Assembly (NCBI GenBank): GCA_919902045.1
Contig: CAKKSP010000003.1
Coordinates: forward strand, 26,210-63,412
Reading direction: 5' to 3'
Origin: Omnitrophica bacterium GWA2_41_15
GTDB lineage: Bacteria > Omnitrophota > Gorgyraeia > Gygaellales > Profunditerraquicolaceae
Length of the DNA stretch: 37,203 nucleotides
Shown piece after piece: positions 2,022 to 14,331 of the stretch (position 1 is its first letter; every line of letters begins with the position of its first letter). The position numbers were made by a program, and so were the translations under genes. The notes under the pieces were generated by a model that made no database searches, was not told where the DNA came from, and saw only the letters and a list, made by a program, of their open reading frames with translations.

Positions 2022-2855
2022 ATGTACGAAGAATACTGGAAGTTAAAAGAGAAGCCTTTTGAGAATACGCCGGATTCGCGTTTTTTCTTTTGTTCGCCTG
2101 AACATGAGGAAGCGCTGATGCGGCTTCTTTATTCTGTGGAGGAGCGTAAAGGAAGCGCTATGCTTTCCGGTGAATACGGAAGCGGGAAAACCCTGCTTAG
2201 CCGCGTGATTTACGGAAAACTTATGCAGCAGGAAGAGGCGTATAAAGTAGCATTAATTGTCAATCCTGCGATTCCGGTGCTTGAGCTTTTAGGTGAAATT
2301 GTCTATCAGTTGGGTGGTGAAAATTCCGCTGCTGACCGGAAAATAGATATTTTACGCAGCCTGAATGAGATCCTTTTTCAGACTGCCAAAGAAGGCAAAC
2401 ATACCGTGGTAATAGTTGATGAATCGCAGGTTATAGCCGATGAGTCTGTGTTTGAAGAGTTACGCCTGCTTTTAAATTTCCAGCTTAATGAGCGTTTTTT
2501 GCTTACACTGCTTTTGCTGGGCCAGCCGGAGCTAAGAGAAAAAATTGATCGTATTCCTCAATTTAGACAGCGCCTTGCTTTACGTTTTCATCTTACTACG
2601 CTTAAACCTGATGAAGTGCGTAGTTATATTGAACACCGCCTGCGCGTTGCAGGAAGGCAGGATAATATGTTTTCCGATGGGGTTTATCGTTTAATTTACG
2701 AGCATTCTCAAGGGGTACCGCGGCAGATCAATAATTTATGTGATTTAAGTTTAGTTATTGGTATGGGCAGGAAAGTTAATATTATTGATGAGCAAATAAT
2801 TAGCGATGTGGTTAAAGATATGTTTTATCACCAGGAAGCTATAGCAAATGGTTAG
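2022..2855 (+). CDS. AAA ATPase, ExeA/XrtA-system-associated type
   Basis: MYEEYWKLKEKPFENTPDSRFFF start typical of this family; Walker A GEYGSGKT; Walker B VVIVDESQ. Confidence 0.85.
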   Translation: MYEEYWKLKEKPFENTPDSRFFFCSPEHEEALMRLLYSVEERKGSAMLSGEYGSGKTLLSRVIYGKLMQQEEAYKVALIVNPAIPVLELLGEIVYQLGGENSAADRKIDILRSLNEILFQTAKEGKHTVVIVDESQVIADESVFEELRLLLNFQLNERFLLTLLLLGQPELREKIDRIPQFRQRLALRFHLTTLKPDEVRSYIEHRLRVAGRQDNMFSDGVYRLIYEHSQGVPRQINNLCDLSLVIGMGRKVNIIDEQIISDVVKDMFYHQEAIANG

Positions 2856-3957
2856 AATATCCGATATTCTTAGAAAAAAACCAGAGCCAGAACCAGAGCC
2901 TTCCAAAGAGCCCAAAAAAGAAGAAATAAAGGCTCCTTTGCAAGATAATTCCGGGAGCGAAGAAGCAAAAGAGATAAAAGCTAATCCTGTGGAGGCTCAG
3001 GCGCCGCAGATGCAGATTGCGCAGGCTATGAAAGAGCTTGAGCCGGATATGAGCCGCTCTCAGAATTTATATGGCCGCGGGATTGTATTGATCGAAAAAT
3101 TGCTTAATGATATTCAGAATGCCAAGGATATTGATATTCTGCCGGTGCGGGCGTTTGTTGATGAAGTAGTCAATTCTTTTATTCTGGGCGATAAAACACT
3201 ACTTATAATTTTTCATGAAGATTTAATTAAGGATGATTATCTTCCTTATCATATGTTAAATGTTATGCTTATGTCAACGGCGATGGGCTTAAAGTTTGGT
3301 TATAATAAATCGCGCTTAGATGATCTGGGCCTAGCAGCTTTTTTGCATGATGTGGGAATGACAAAATTAAGGGGGATAGTTAATTCTCCGCGTTTTCTTT
3401 CCGACGCAGAATATGGTAAAGTTAAGGAGCACACGCTTTACAGTGAGCAGATGCTTTCTCAGGTGAAAGATATGCCGGCATCTGTGCTTGAGGCGGTCAG
3501 GCAGCAACATGAACATTCTGACGGAAAAGGTTATCCTCAAGGGCTGCGTGGCCAGGAGATCTGTGAGTTTGCCAGAATAATTTCTACTGTTGATATGTAT
3601 GAAGCGCTTACGCATCGGCGCGCTTACCGGCAACAGCTCGCTCCGTATGAAGCGATTAAAGAGATGCTTACTACCAGTAACGCTCTTTTAGACCACAGGA
3701 TTTTTAAGATGTTGATTAATATCGTAGGAGTTTATCCGGTTGGTTCTTATGCCGAGCTTAATACCGGAGAGGTTGCTAAAGTTATGGCGCCTAATGATGA
3801 TTTTCCGCTTCGGCCTGTAGTAAATATTATTTTTGACGCAAATCGTAATACTCTTGCGCAATCGAGAATTATTAATTTGGCCCGGCAGTTTAATGTGAAT
3901 ATTAAGAGGCCGCTATCAGGGGAAGAAGTATCGCGGCTTGCGCGCGGCGCCGGTTAA
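2848..3957 (+). CDS. HD-GYP domain protein (putative c-di-GMP phosphodiesterase)
   Basis: HDVGM, HEHSDGKGYPQGL, DMYEALTHRRAYR motifs; overlaps the preceding CDS by 8 nt. Confidence 0.85.
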   Translation: MVRISDILRKKPEPEPEPSKEPKKEEIKAPLQDNSGSEEAKEIKANPVEAQAPQMQIAQAMKELEPDMSRSQNLYGRGIVLIEKLLNDIQNAKDIDILPVRAFVDEVVNSFILGDKTLLIIFHEDLIKDDYLPYHMLNVMLMSTAMGLKFGYNKSRLDDLGLAAFLHDVGMTKLRGIVNSPRFLSDAEYGKVKEHTLYSEQMLSQVKDMPASVLEAVRQQHEHSDGKGYPQGLRGQEICEFARIISTVDMYEALTHRRAYRQQLAPYEAIKEMLTTSNALLDHRIFKMLINIVGVYPVGSYAELNTGEVAKVMAPNDDFPLRPVVNIIFDANRNTLAQSRIINLARQFNVNIKRPLSGEEVSRLARGAG

Positions 3958-8240: not shown

Positions 8241-9440
8241 ATGGAAGAAAATAACCCTATTGATAAATATTTTTTTGAATACGAAGACAGGCTTAAAGAG
8301 GTCTGCAAGCCGGATTATATAGCTGAAGATCTAAAAAAGCTCAAAGAAATTTTACAGCATATGTTCAGCCGTTGCCTTCAGGCTGAGGAGCAAATTAGTG
8401 GCAATGAGCGTAAACAGCTTCAGGGTAGGTCGGATTTATTGGCGCTTGCCAATGCCAATGCCGCGATTTTATTAGCTGATGCAGATGAGAAAAATAAGGC
8501 TTTGATAGGGATAACTAAGCAGTTTGAAGAAAAAAAGCGCCTGATGGATGAGCAGTCAAGGAATTTAGCTAAAGCTAATGTGAGCGCTGCTTTTTTGGTC
8601 GCAGAAATTGAAACAAAAAACACAGAACTAAAGCAAATAAACGATGAGCTGAAAAGTACACAGGCCCAGCTTGTGCATAGCCATAAGATGGCGGCAATGG
8701 GGCAACTCGGCGCAGGGCTTGCGCATGAATTAAACCAGCCGCTTTGCGCTATTAAAGGCTACGCGCAGATGATGATCTCAAGCGTCCCTCCAGATGATCA
8801 AAACCGGGAATTGTTAGAAGAGATAGTCACCCAGACTAACCGGATGAATAAAATCATCAATAGTATTAGAAGTTATGCGCGCACAGCAGGCAACGAATAT
8901 AAGCCGATGGATTTAAATAAGTGTATAGAAGACGCATTTATGCTTTTTGAAAGCCAACTGCGTGAGAAAAACATTAAAACTAGTTTTGAGCTTGGAGAGC
9001 AGCTACCTCAAATAAAAGGTGATTTAAATCAATTACAGCAGGTTTTTATGAATCTGATCTCAAATTCTATGGATGCTATGGTAAGTTCAGGAGCACAAGA
9101 AAAACAAGTGAAAGTAAAAACCGTTTTCTTAAATGAAGATAATGCGGTTGAGGTTATTTTTAGCGATAACGGGGTAGGTATCCCGCAGGAGATTGTCAGC
9201 GAGATTTTTAATCCCTTTTTTACTACAAAACCGCAAGGGTCCGGAGCTGGTTTGGGGTTATCTATTGCCAGCGGCATAGTTAAAACGCATATGGGTGAGA
9301 TTGGTGTAGTATCGGAGCCGGGAAAATTTACGGATTTCCATATAATATTTCCTACGGTATCATCTGAAAAATCAAGCCGCGTAGGAGAAACAAAAGAACC
9401 GATTGTTAAGTATAACTTGGGGACTTTAGGGGAAGGTTAG
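8241..9440 (+). CDS. Soluble sensor histidine kinase with coiled-coil N-terminus
   Basis: LAHELNQPLCAIKGYAQ H-box, SDNGVGIP, GSGAGLGLSIASGIV; two LAxANxxAA..ExKN repeats before the DHp. Confidence 0.87.
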   Translation: MEENNPIDKYFFEYEDRLKEVCKPDYIAEDLKKLKEILQHMFSRCLQAEEQISGNERKQLQGRSDLLALANANAAILLADADEKNKALIGITKQFEEKKRLMDEQSRNLAKANVSAAFLVAEIETKNTELKQINDELKSTQAQLVHSHKMAAMGQLGAGLAHELNQPLCAIKGYAQMMISSVPPDDQNRELLEEIVTQTNRMNKIINSIRSYARTAGNEYKPMDLNKCIEDAFMLFESQLREKNIKTSFELGEQLPQIKGDLNQLQQVFMNLISNSMDAMVSSGAQEKQVKVKTVFLNEDNAVEVIFSDNGVGIPQEIVSEIFNPFFTTKPQGSGAGLGLSIASGIVKTHMGEIGVVSEPGKFTDFHIIFPTVSSEKSSRVGETKEPIVKYNLGTLGEG

Positions 9441-9443
9441 TTT

Positions 9444-10193
9444 ATGATAAGCGTATTGGTTGTAGATGATGAAAAAGTAATCCGGGATTTTATCAGGCGG
9501 CTTTTAGAGCATGATGGCTCTTTAAGTCTTTTTTTTGCAGAGGATGGATATAAGGCAGTTGATATTGCCAGAAAAAACAAAATCAACCTGGCATTTATTG
9601 ACCTGCATATGCCGGGAATCGACGGAATTAAAACTTATAAAGAAATAAAAAATTTATATCCGGATATAGCCTGTGTGTTTACTACTGGTTATGCGGTTGA
9701 TGAAGTAGTGGTAGATAAGGCTAATAACGAAAAAATAATCTGCCTTAAAAAACCTTTTGAAGATATACTGCAGATTAGAAGGATTGTCCGGGAAGTGCAA
9801 AATAAAATAAAAGCTAAAGAGCAGGATCCTCAGAAAAAGGTTTCTACTGTGGGAAAAGACCGCCGGACGCACGTGAGAATAAATACTACTTTAGAAGTTG
9901 TTTTTAAAATTCACGATGGAACAGGCGAGCTTATTTCAGCTTTGGGCCAGGATATTTCACCAGGAGGGGTTAAGCTTGTTTGCCAGCAACAACTGCAAGT
10001 AGGGGCGCACTTAGATTTAATGTTAAAGGTGCCCGGCCATAGTAATGCCTGTAAGGCTACCGGAGAAGTGACTTGGCAAAAGAAAAACGATTCAGAAACC
10101 GAATCTTATGCTATCGGGTTAAAATTCACCCAGATTAATTTATCTGAGCTTGCAGAGCTTGTAGTAAATTGTGGCTCAATTAAAGATTTGTAA
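9444..10193 (+). CDS. Response regulator with C-terminal PilZ domain
   Basis: VVDDEK and LAFIDLHMPGIDG receiver motifs; DRRTHVRI ... GQDISPGGVKL PilZ-like motifs. Confidence 0.82.
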   Translation: MISVLVVDDEKVIRDFIRRLLEHDGSLSLFFAEDGYKAVDIARKNKINLAFIDLHMPGIDGIKTYKEIKNLYPDIACVFTTGYAVDEVVVDKANNEKIICLKKPFEDILQIRRIVREVQNKIKAKEQDPQKKVSTVGKDRRTHVRINTTLEVVFKIHDGTGELISALGQDISPGGVKLVCQQQLQVGAHLDLMLKVPGHSNACKATGEVTWQKKNDSETESYAIGLKFTQINLSELAELVVNCGSIKDL

Positions 10194-10196
10194 CCT

Positions 10197-10219
10197 GATT
10201 CGACCTACGCGGTCGAATC
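10197..10219. repeat. TCGACCTACGCGGTCGA-family palindrome
   Basis: gattcgacc-tacgc-ggtcgaatc, perfect 9-bp arms. Confidence 0.75.
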
Positions 10220-10237
10220 GTCTGAAAGGAATGTTTT

Positions 10238-10975
10238 ATGGAAGAGCGTAAAATGCGGGCTTTAATTGTAGATGATGAAAAAATCATCCGTGATTTTTTT
10301 AGCCGCCTGCTTAGTTTACAGGGTGTAGATGTGGTTTTGGCAGAAGATGGTTATAAAGCAGTAGAATTAGCAAAAGAGACAAACTTCGATATTTATTTTA
10401 TTGATGTCCGGATGCCGGGTATAAACGGCCTTGAGACATTTCGCAAGATAAAAGAAAGCCGGCCTGATGCAGTAGTAGTAATGATGACAGGTTATGCGGT
10501 TGAAGAGGTTTTAGCCGAGGCGCAAAAAGAGGGGGCATTTAGCGCCTTGCATAAGCCGTTTGATATCAGCGAGATTAAAGGTATACTTGATAAAGTGCTT
10601 TCTGAGAAAAAAGGCGCTTTAAATATATTAGTCATAGACGATGACGAAGCGGTGCTTAACTTTTTTTCCGCGTTTCTTAAAACTAAAAACCAGAAATATA
10701 AAGTTGCCCATGATAAGAATGAGGCGCTGGCTTTAGCAAGTAAAGAAAAATTTGATATGGTATTCCTGGATTTGGTCTTAAGAGATGAAGGAGCCATGGT
10801 TTATAAGGAAATAAAACAGCTCCTGCCCGATGCCAGCATTATAGTAATTACCGGGTATCCTCAGAAAGCCAAAGAACTTGAGAACGCTCCGGAGATTTCC
10901 GGTTGTCTTTATAAACCGTTTGAAATTGATGGTATCCTTGATTATATAAAAAGCGTCAAAGCCAAAAAGCAATAA
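10238..10975 (+). CDS. Dual-receiver response regulator (REC-REC)
   Basis: Two receiver domains: VDDEK/YFIDVRMPG/KPF and IDDDE/VFLDLVLRDEG/KPF. Confidence 0.85.
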   Translation: MEERKMRALIVDDEKIIRDFFSRLLSLQGVDVVLAEDGYKAVELAKETNFDIYFIDVRMPGINGLETFRKIKESRPDAVVVMMTGYAVEEVLAEAQKEGAFSALHKPFDISEIKGILDKVLSEKKGALNILVIDDDEAVLNFFSAFLKTKNQKYKVAHDKNEALALASKEKFDMVFLDLVLRDEGAMVYKEIKQLLPDASIIVITGYPQKAKELENAPEISGCLYKPFEIDGILDYIKSVKAKKQ

Positions 10976-12525
10976 TGGGGGAGTTAGAGCATCTTATAGA
11001 GGAAAATAAGCGGCTAACTCAAGAGCTGAAGCAAAGGGCTTTTGAGCTTGGTGTGCTCTATGACATATCAAATAGCATAAGTTATACGCTTGATTATGAC
11101 GATCTCTTGCGGCGGATTATGGATTCGTTGCATCAGATCGTTGCTTATGATATTTGCGCTTATTTTGTGATTCCGGCTGAAGGAAGAATGAAGTTGTCTG
11201 TCAGGCTTTCCCGGCCGATAGCGCGGGTTTTTATAAATGAAGTAGAAGAGAAAATTATTGCTTCTTTGCGTAACTTGCGTAACCAGTTTATTTCGCGCGA
11301 AGATATTTCTACCGATATAAAAGGGGAAATTGTCGAAAGCCCTGCTAGAGGCCAAAGTATAAAATCATCATTTGATGTGCCTCTTTTCGTAGGTGATAAG
11401 GCGGTAGGGCTTTTAACCGTAGCCAGTATTCAAGATATAGTTTATTCAGATGAAGAAATAAAGCTTCTTTATACCCTTGCTTCACAGGCTTCCATTGCTA
11501 TTGAACGTATACAGGCATTGTTAGTAGCAGAAAAAAGTAAGATGAAAGTGATGGTAGAAGGTATGTCAGAAGGGGTTTTGATGTTTGATGAGACTGATGA
11601 GTTGGTTATTTTTAATAGTGCTGCCAAGCAGATGCTTGCCGGAGATTTAGATATTATTGGTAGCATCGAGGAAATTAAAAAATACCAGAGGCAGAAACCG
11701 TATAAGCTTGATTTACAGGTTGAAAAGCCGCTTGCGCATATTGTACATGTAGAAGGAATGCGCATAGAAGACGAAGAGCGCCGTTTTTTGGGGACAACAG
11801 TACTTTTACGCGATGTTACTAAGGAGCGTGAAATTGATTTGATGAAGTCGGAGTTTGTCTCTTTGGTTTCGCATGAATTACGCACCCCCCTTGCTGCTAT
11901 AAAAGGTTCGGTAGATAATTTGCTTGATGGGGTTGTGGGGCCCCTTAATGATTTGCAGAATGAATGCTTGGTAGTTGGAAAGCGCAATATCGACCGCCTA
12001 GCCCGTTTAATCTCTGACCTGCTTGATGTTTCGCGGATTGAAGCAGGTAATATTTTGTTACATAAACAGGCAATGGATATGACAGAAGCTGTTAGGGATG
12101 TTTTAAAACTTTTTCAGGAACCGGCTAGGGGGAAAGGAATAATTTTAGAAAACCAGATCGAAGGCGTTATCCCTAAAATTAATGCCGATCCGGATAAGAT
12201 TATCCAAGTATTGACAAATCTCGTCGGCAATGCGATGAAATTTACTCTGGAAGGCGGAACTATAAGCTTAAAATTGTCTTTATCTGAGAAAATAATTAGG
12301 GCAGAGGTAAAGGATACCGGTTCGGGGATTCCGCTTGAGGATGTAGAGAAGATATTTGATAAATTTTTTCAGGTGACGCGTACCGGGCATCAGGCAGTAA
12401 AAAAGGGGACTGGTTTGGGTTTAACTATATCTAAGGGAATAATCGAGAAACACGGCGGAAAAATCTGGGCGGAAAGTGAATTAGGTAAAGGAAGTAGTTT
12501 TATTTTTACGCTTCCGGTAGAATAA
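10975..12525 (+). CDS. GAF-PAS sensor histidine kinase
   Basis: GAF-like N-terminus, SHELRTPLAAIKG H-box, DTGSGIP, GTGLGLTISKGI. Confidence 0.88.
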   Translation: MGELEHLIEENKRLTQELKQRAFELGVLYDISNSISYTLDYDDLLRRIMDSLHQIVAYDICAYFVIPAEGRMKLSVRLSRPIARVFINEVEEKIIASLRNLRNQFISREDISTDIKGEIVESPARGQSIKSSFDVPLFVGDKAVGLLTVASIQDIVYSDEEIKLLYTLASQASIAIERIQALLVAEKSKMKVMVEGMSEGVLMFDETDELVIFNSAAKQMLAGDLDIIGSIEEIKKYQRQKPYKLDLQVEKPLAHIVHVEGMRIEDEERRFLGTTVLLRDVTKEREIDLMKSEFVSLVSHELRTPLAAIKGSVDNLLDGVVGPLNDLQNECLVVGKRNIDRLARLISDLLDVSRIEAGNILLHKQAMDMTEAVRDVLKLFQEPARGKGIILENQIEGVIPKINADPDKIIQVLTNLVGNAMKFTLEGGTISLKLSLSEKIIRAEVKDTGSGIPLEDVEKIFDKFFQVTRTGHQAVKKGTGLGLTISKGIIEKHGGKIWAESELGKGSSFIFTLPVE

Positions 12526-12549
12526 AGTTTCTAAACATGGAGGAAAAAA

Positions 12550-12945
12550 ATGGCGCAAGAGAATGTAATGGCTACAAAAAGAATACTTATCTGCGATGAT
12601 GATAAGGCGGTATCGGATTTTTTAGAACGGTTTTTGCAGAAAGAGGGGTATTCACAGATAGAGACCGTAACAAGCGGGGAAGCAGCGGTAGAAAAAATGA
12701 AAAATAATAATTACCAACTGGTGCTGCTTGATATTCGTATGCCGGGTATTGACGGGATTGAAACTCTCAAACGTATAAAAGAAATTAATAGCAGCGCCGC
12801 GGTTATTATGATTACGGGTTTTCCTGAAATTGAGACCGCACAGCAAGCGGTTAAAATGGGAGCGTATGATTATATTGTAAAGCCTTTTGACTTGGCTTAT
12901 CTTAAGCTGGTGGTATTAACTAAAATTCTAGTTGATTCTAAGTGA
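12550..12945 (+). CDS. Single-domain response regulator
   Basis: ICDDDK, LVLLDIRMPGIDG, MITGF, VKPF. Confidence 0.87.
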   Translation: MAQENVMATKRILICDDDKAVSDFLERFLQKEGYSQIETVTSGEAAVEKMKNNNYQLVLLDIRMPGIDGIETLKRIKEINSSAAVIMITGFPEIETAQQAVKMGAYDYIVKPFDLAYLKLVVLTKILVDSK

Positions 12946-13184
12946 AAAAAATTCATTTAGGGACTAGCCGCACATTTGGCCATGACTTACGCTCAATATT
13001 GGCTTCTGTGCGTTGGTCGGTAGGCCTTATCAAGACCGGCATGTTAGGGCCTGTGAGTAGTAAGCAAAAAAAATATTTGCAAATTGCAGATGATGGCATA
13101 GCTAAAGCCGTAGAGCTTATCGGCAGGCTAAATAAGGTTTCGGTTAATAAGGAGAAAAATGCGGCCAAATCCAAAACTAAATAA
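12942..13184 (+). CDS. Orphan HisKA/DHp-like protein (80 aa) without ATPase domain
   Basis: GTG start overlapping the previous TGA (GTGA). FGHDLRSILASVRWSVGLIKTGMLGPVSSKQKKYLQIADDGIAKAVELIGRLNKVS aligns by eye with the DHp of the kinase at 10975-12525. Confidence 0.7.
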   Translation: MKKIHLGTSRTFGHDLRSILASVRWSVGLIKTGMLGPVSSKQKKYLQIADDGIAKAVELIGRLNKVSVNKEKNAAKSKTK

Positions 13185-13554
13185 TAAAAAAAAGATATTA
13201 GTAGTGGATGATGATGATAATTTGCGCCAATCATTAAAAGCCGGACTTGAAGAGCAAGGATTTAAAATTTTTCTTGCTTCTGACGGAGAAGAAGGTTTTG
13301 AAAAGGCAAAAGAAAATTTACCGGATTTAATATTGCTTAATATTATGATGCCAAAGATGGACGGGATGATGACTACCCTGAAATTAAAAGGCGAGAAAGA
13401 GACGCGCCATATCCCGGTTTTGATTATGAGTGGTATCAGAGAAAAAGAAGAGCGGATTCTTTCTCATAATGTCGGGGCAGCAGATTATTTGATAAAGCCA
13501 TTTACTACTGAGCAGTTATTAGAGAAAATCCACAAACTGTTATTAGGCAAATAA
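13159..13554 (+). CDS. Receiver-domain protein with degenerate phospho-acceptor (Asn61)
   Basis: VVDDDD, LILLNIMMPKMDG (Asn in place of Asp), MSG, IKPF; SD aaggag. Confidence 0.85.
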   Translation: MRPNPKLNNKKKILVVDDDDNLRQSLKAGLEEQGFKIFLASDGEEGFEKAKENLPDLILLNIMMPKMDGMMTTLKLKGEKETRHIPVLIMSGIREKEERILSHNVGAADYLIKPFTTEQLLEKIHKLLLGK

Positions 13555-14331
13555 ATGGTTGAATATTACGAATTTTTACGCGGTGAAAACGCATATTTTG
13601 ATAAAGTTATACTTAAAAACGAAGAGACTTGTTATCAAGGTTGCCTGTCTTTCATAAAAAAAGTTTATCTTGTCGGAGATGCATTTAAGGAAGAAGATTT
13701 TAGTTCACTTTATGAATTTGCTAAACAACTTACGAATAAAGCTATTTACCATGAGTCCAAGATTAATCTTTTAGCCAGTTTTCCTTACAATAATGATTAC
13801 CAGGCCTATCATACGGTTAATGTCGCTGTTCTTTCGCTGGAATTAGGAAAGTCGATTTTTTCCAATTCCGATGAGTTAGTTAATTTAGCCATGTTTGCGC
13901 TTTGCCATATTTTGGTATGGGAAGATGTAAAACCAATAAATTTACGTTTAGGGTTAAGCGAAGATTTTTTGAAAAGTGTTTTTGGTATTATTTCTGTAGC
14001 AGACGTTTATGAGACTTTTACGCATACCCGGCCTTACCGGGATAAACTCGCACCTTATGATGTATTAAAAGCGATGGTTTCTGCTGCGGATGTTGTTTTT
14101 ATGCCTTCGTTAGCAAGGAAGGCTCTGAAAGTTTTTTCGCTTTATCCATTAGGCAGTGTTGTACGCTTAAGTAACGGTGAAATAGCCCAGGTAACCAAAC
14201 TTAACAGAAAGTATCCTTTAAGGCCCGAGGTATTGATACTTACAGAGCCAGAAGCAGGTAATCTGGATTCATTAAAAATTTTTGATTTATCTGAACATCT
14301 GGAAGTCTATATAAAAGAAACCAAGGTATAA
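13555..14331 (+). CDS. Degenerate HD-GYP-like protein
   Basis: Aligns by eye with the 2848-3957 protein (YHTVNVAVLS..., ISVADVYETFTHTRPYRDKLAPYDVLKAM, YPLGSVVRLSNGEIAQV...YPLRPEV) but HD and GYP motifs are missing. Confidence 0.75.
   Translation: MVEYYEFLRGENAYFDKVILKNEETCYQGCLSFIKKVYLVGDAFKEEDFSSLYEFAKQLTNKAIYHESKINLLASFPYNNDYQAYHTVNVAVLSLELGKSIFSNSDELVNLAMFALCHILVWEDVKPINLRLGLSEDFLKSVFGIISVADVYETFTHTRPYRDKLAPYDVLKAMVSAADVVFMPSLARKALKVFSLYPLGSVVRLSNGEIAQVTKLNRKYPLRPEVLILTEPEAGNLDSLKIFDLSEHLEVYIKETKV

Follow-up and report, generated by a model that had tools for sequence, protein, structure and literature searches.

What does a gene do that encodes a histidine-phosphotransfer (DHp) domain and nothing else? 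The question is raised by a locus of an uncultured Omnitrophota bacterium that is represented by a draft MAG (1.14 Mb, 51 contigs, 82% complete). The window, which is the whole stretch of 37,203 nucleotides that was analyzed, lies on contig C3 and holds a two-component cluster in which a small open reading frame is wedged between two receiver genes. The frame is confirmed as a real gene (termed DHp gene here) that encodes a helical hairpin related to HisKA/DHp domains. The gene may be a minimal signaling damper or a fading remnant, and it is known from one draft genome.

Layout of the cluster

According to ORFs and Pfam, the cluster spans 8241-14331, from the kinase HK1 to an HD-GYP-like gene, with all genes on the plus strand (Table 1). 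Both neighbors of the DHp gene are receiver genes, and each of them overlaps it. The GTGA coupling to the upstream receiver that the earlier note had claimed is found as an overlap with the stop of RR1, and the 3′ end shares 26 bases with the start of RR2. The DHp frame runs straight into RR2 and is closed by two stop codons.

Table 1. Coordinates of the two-component cluster and of the sites discussed (positions in the window)
Feature	Position	Strand	Basis and remarks
HK1 kinase	8241-9440	+	ORF/Pfam
RR-PilZ (receiver-PilZ)	9444-10193	+	ORF/Pfam; phospho-acceptor Asp kept
Double receiver protein	10238-10975	+	Pfam; part of conserved cluster; Asp kept
HK2, complete kinase GAF-PAS-HisKA-HATPase, His300	10975-12525	+	Pfam; present in seven relatives
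RR1, stand-alone receiver, 131 aa, intact Asp61	12550-12945	+	Pfam, receiver alignment
RR1 phospho-acceptor Asp61 codon	12730-12732	+	Receiver alignment
GTGA, RR1 stop/DHp start overlap (translational coupling)	12942-12945	+	Sequence
Stand-alone DHp (HisKA-like) gene, 80 aa, GTG start; core hairpin residues 14-63	12942-13184	+	ORF, profiles, codon statistics, AlphaFold2, Foldseek
Predicted phospho-acceptor His14 codon, CAT; H-box H-D-L-R-S-I	12981-12983	+	Sequence/alignment
AAGGAG ribosome-binding site of RR2, within DHp coding sequence	13149-13154	+	Sequence
RR2, stand-alone receiver, 131 aa, ATG at 13159, Asn61 instead of Asp	13159-13554	+	Pfam, receiver alignment
RR2 Asn61 codon AAT at phospho-acceptor position (LILLN)	13339-13341	+	Receiver alignment
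Degenerate HD-GYP-like protein behind RR2; HD = HI, GYP loop missing	13555-14331	+	Alignment, predicted model

Coding, homology, and fold of the DHp protein

In Pfam, HisKA is the sole match to the DHp protein (residues 14-63, E 0.0014), and its 19.1 bits lie under the curated cut-off of 26.9 bits (PF00512). With a profile that was built from the HisKA segments of 30 Omnitrophota kinases, the score is 40.2 bits (E 2.6e-10 in 14,582 ORF segments), which puts the HisKA resemblance far above chance. The profile search that the earlier note had proposed thus falls short in Pfam and gives a clear match with the phylum-specific profile. In 1.78 Mb of sequence, the DHp gene is the single complete ORF of less than 200 aa that matches this profile. 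Among the family profiles, HisKA alone is matched and the Spo0B family is not, NCBIfam yields no match, and a sequence search of the PDB returns one weak match, the full histidine kinase 9m08 (E 0.0084). The match to the DHp domain of HK2 is weak (32% over 56 residues, E 7.8e-4). Codon usage favors the DHp frame, with a log-likelihood ratio of +0.23 per codon versus about -0.11 for the remaining forward frames, and this codon signal is the lowest among the 12 genes measured.

Pfam does not find HATPase_c in the DHp protein. No ATPase domain or remnant follows the hairpin in any frame of the region behind HK2, where a 9-residue chance match is all that was found. The N terminus comprises only 13 residues before His14 and harbors neither PAS/GAF nor another sensor domain. 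The orphan DHp of 80 aa with a GTG start, a retained histidine, and no ATPase domain that had been read from the letters is borne out by ORF, profiles, and sequence, and the codon assigned to the histidine is CAT.

AlphaFold2 predicts two long helices (residues 2-31 and 40-79) with a pLDDT of 82 that reaches 92-95 across residues 21-60. DHp domains rank first when the model is compared with the PDB by Foldseek. The best match is RetS-GacS (7n0e, probability 1.00), the EnvZ P248A DHp (5b1o) is also found, and all E-values are at least 0.001, as expected with a short hairpin. The TM value of the model against the GacS DHp is 0.88 by target length.

The canonical HisKA H-box reads H-E/D-x-x-T/N-P. 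In the DHp protein, the pattern is broken: His14 and the acidic residue at +1 are kept, +4 is a serine, and the proline is absent, as the earlier note had claimed, with an isoleucine at His+5. The protein differs at 10 of the 18 kinase-conserved positions (those conserved in 90% or more of the set), compared to 0-5 in each of 30 kinases; conservative exchanges (E to D, T to S, and R to K) account for three of the ten. The hydrophobic core of residues 14-63 is kept at all 13 of its 13 positions. When ten canonical kinase segments are mutated neutrally until ten conserved positions are lost, a simulation that assumes a canonical ancestor, only 0-1.5% of the runs retain an uninterrupted frame together with the whole core and the histidine. 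This low neutral survival favors past selection on the DHp fold and is no substitute for dN/dS; no orthologue of the protein was found, so selection on the gene is not directly measurable.

Proteins with HisKA and without HATPase are an already recognized class, and the DHp protein belongs to it by its HisKA-like domain, its conserved histidine, and the missing HATPase. In P2CS, a protein that has HisKA but neither HATPase nor a receiver domain is classed as a phosphotransfer protein (PMC2716373), and the same functional suggestions have been made for archaeal “nonenzymatic HK-like proteins” with sensor domains (PMC5847659). A HisKA-like domain, the histidine, and the absence of a recognizable ATPase are common to the DHp protein, the P2CS “possible incomplete histidine kinase,” and the archaeal proteins (PMC5847659, PMC2716373). 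The latter carry N-terminal PAS/GAF or other sensors, however, whereas the DHp protein is a bare 80-aa hairpin, bacterial, and encoded in a receiver operon. The alphaproteobacterial ChpT and PhyT are HK-like phosphotransfer proteins as well; ChpT has no autokinase activity, and PhyT moves phosphate between receivers (PMC3433190, PMC5898713). In both, a degenerate ATPase-type domain is retained, whereas the DHp protein stops after the hairpin. PhyT is additionally membrane-anchored and has an HRxxN (HWE/HisKA_2-type) H-box, unlike the DHp protein.

Occurrence in relatives and the neighboring genes

Seven further genomes of the order carry an HK2 orthologue (51-60% identity). In five of the seven, an RR2-like receiver follows the kinase directly, without RR1 or a DHp gene between, at a distance of 1-7 bases in G004, G005, and G071 and of about 80-160 bases in G048 and G049. 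No receiver stands directly behind the kinase in G124, and the contig of G078 stops about 400 bases past it. Homologues of RR1 (at most 64% identity) sit elsewhere in relatives, and no DHp-only gene accompanies them in the homologue loci read. By gene order, RR1 and the DHp gene appear to have been inserted together between HK2 and RR2, in an arrangement known from one lineage. The order receiver-DHp-receiver, which the earlier note had proposed to check in relatives, was found conserved nowhere. A full-length kinase at the position of the DHp gene, which had been named as the sign of a recent truncation, was not found in relatives either, and the orphan reading stands. That a conserved kinase was truncated at this site is accordingly rejected, as the relatives have no kinase there and, in five of them, a receiver comes immediately after HK2. 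Recent duplication of the HK2 DHp domain is not favored as the origin of the gene, as kinases of other families outscore HK2.

Among named relatives, HK2 is matched best by a protein of a Candidatus Omnitrophota MAG, and the searches at the family, order, and phylum level refer to this group. No stand-alone version of the DHp protein is among the listed matches in 108 family, 384 phylum, and 384 class genomes (overlapping sets), of which the phylum list extends to about E 1e-4. Each listed match falls in a frame of 286 codons or more, apart from one in a 100-codon frame that two stops interrupt. No close relative emerged when 84,980 GTDB species genomes and viral contigs were scanned by pattern.

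The receiver behind the DHp gene has lost its phospho-acceptor. Where RR2 has Asn61, an aspartate is found in 18 of 18 other aligned receiver domains, among them those that take the place of RR2 right after the HK2 orthologue in five relatives. RR1 is therefore the sole adjacent stand-alone receiver able to exchange phosphate by normal chemistry, and the partnership with both flanking receivers that the earlier note had proposed has to be narrowed to RR1 for normal phosphate exchange. A relay from RR1 via the DHp protein to RR2 is rejected because of the asparagine. RR1 is the likely partner of the DHp protein, since the two genes overlap and RR1 has kept the aspartate that RR2 has lost.

Degeneration is also seen in the HD-GYP-like protein behind RR2. 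Its HD motif reads HI, the GYP segment is deleted, and Pfam detects nothing significant in it; the top match of a low-confidence model (pLDDT 66) is nonetheless the HD-GYP protein Bd1817. The window also contains, at 2848-3957, an HD-GYP paralogue that looks intact. In G007, an RR2-like receiver with an intact aspartate directly precedes a similar shortened HD-GYP-like protein (L241 4607-5344), so the pairing of RR2 with the HD protein is probably older than the change to asparagine. RR1 homologues occur directly behind HD-GYP-like genes and next to genes that by eye encode ExeA-like ATPases (L237 5947-7672, L236 5451-7828); RR1-type receivers thus seem to associate with HD-GYP proteins in these other loci.

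Possible roles of the DHp protein

The explanation that is tentatively favored is a constitutive, kinase-less DHp that drains phosphate from RR1~P. The minimal protein would be expected to dimerize into a four-helix bundle, be co-translated with RR1, and stay constitutively bound to it as a phosphate-handling partner. Self-loading would not be possible without an ATPase domain. Instead, the protein would take phosphate from RR1~P, through back-transfer to His14 and/or hydrolysis, and would thereby damp or buffer the signal from HK2 to RR1. For this scheme we infer expression, dimerization, RR1 binding, the phosphorylation of RR1 by HK2, and the direction of phosphate flow. It is supported by the GTGA coupling to RR1, the intact aspartate of RR1, His14 with its acidic neighbor, the full core, and the rarity of such retention in the neutral simulation. 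The main specificity positions of DHp domains were defined in EnvZ as His+7, +11, and +12 (PMC2991266). The DHp protein and HK2 share Ala at His+7 and Ser at His+12, and two equal positions out of three make a common receiver plausible. Against the drain stand the third position, where the DHp protein has Trp and HK2 has Gly, the lack of an orthologue, and the changes at +4 and +5.

The chemistry of the drain has a precedent in isolated DHp constructs of NtrB and EnvZ (domain A), which were reported to dephosphorylate their regulators and which have the same domain extent without a CA domain (PMC3510030). These constructs are artificial and carry the canonical T/N and P, whereas the DHp gene is natural and encodes S and I. 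In CrdS, the Asn at +4 is needed for phosphatase activity, and P+5A cuts this activity strongly (PMC3510030). For the EnvZ DHp alone, phosphatase activity was not apparent in mammalian cells (PMC8971529). By analogy, the DHp protein, with Ser in place of Thr/Asn at +4 and Ile in place of Pro at +5, may have weak phosphatase activity. Hydrolysis is no more likely than back-transfer or plain binding. If functional, the protein would be the natural counterpart of the laboratory constructs and the smallest possible phospho-His regulator, and a DHp would be able to persist without sensor or ATPase. It would offer a clean test case for a bare DHp as phosphatase, phosphate sink, or kinase inhibitor, for which the published EnvZ experiments are in dispute.

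A strong rival to the drain, itself possible if somewhat doubtful, is a decaying remnant. On this view, the leading part of a kinase would have entered the cluster together with RR1, between HK2 and RR2, would have lost the ATPase domain, and would now drift without function, whether translated or not. The restriction to a single genome agrees with this, as do the number of lost kinase-conserved positions, which exceeds that of each of the 30 kinases, the poorest codon signal of the 12 genes, and the loss of catalytic residues in the next two genes (RR2 Asp to Asn and the HD-GYP motifs). However, the open frame, whole core, and histidine are seldom retained together in the neutral simulation with its canonical ancestor, an ATPase trace is absent from every frame, the gene tightly overlaps both neighbors, and some of the losses are conservative. 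A remnant would record the decay of a two-component operon in small Omnitrophota genomes.

Three consecutive genes (DHp, RR2, and HD-GYP-like) are without catalytic residues, which agrees with a non-catalytic module and with shared decay alike. That the DHp protein and the pseudo-receiver RR2 form a constitutive binding pair without phosphate chemistry, in a largely non-catalytic module, is unlikely.

Equally improbable is a role in mixed DHp bundles. The DHp protein would pair with HK2 or another kinase and block or tune autophosphorylation as a small dominant-negative subunit, by analogy with RetS, which takes over the homodimer interface of GacS and blocks its autophosphorylation (PMC12148439). 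The heterodimer of these DHp domains (7n0e) is among the best structural matches, and HK2 belongs to the same operon and has a similar DHp domain. This similarity is weak, however, and kinases of other families match the DHp protein better. RetS is a full hybrid kinase, unlike the DHp protein.

A Spo0B-like relay, which would lead from RR1 not to RR2 but to RR-PilZ or the double receiver, is a little less probable still. Spo0B of Bacillus sporulation sets the precedent for a DHp as relay intermediate (PMC5231405, PMC6136694), and it resembles the DHp protein as a DHp-type phosphotransfer hairpin without kinase activity that is dimeric in Spo0B (PMC3433190, PMC5231405). The histidine with its acidic neighbor and the aspartates of both candidate receivers are retained. 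Spo0B relays between two phosphorylatable receivers, whereas RR2, the natural next receiver, is not phosphorylatable. Furthermore, HK2 and the other receivers coexist in relatives without the DHp gene, which these therefore do not need.

An assembly or sequencing error, by which the DHp gene would really be fused to RR1 or continue into a full kinase, is very improbable: a single indel in this incomplete draft could fuse RR1 and the DHp gene, but a split REC-DHp fusion is disfavored by RR1 homologues that terminate at about the same residue, and the two stop codons are followed by RR2 with its own ribosome-binding site and by no ATPase sequence.

Receiver-PilZ and double receiver, together with HK2 and a receiver, make up a cluster that is conserved in Omnitrophota (L100, L101, and L103 compared with 9444-12525 of the window). 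In L102, L103, and L124, a gene that by eye resembles GspE/PilB-type secretion ATPases in sequence follows directly after the cluster, hinting at control over a pilus or type II secretion.
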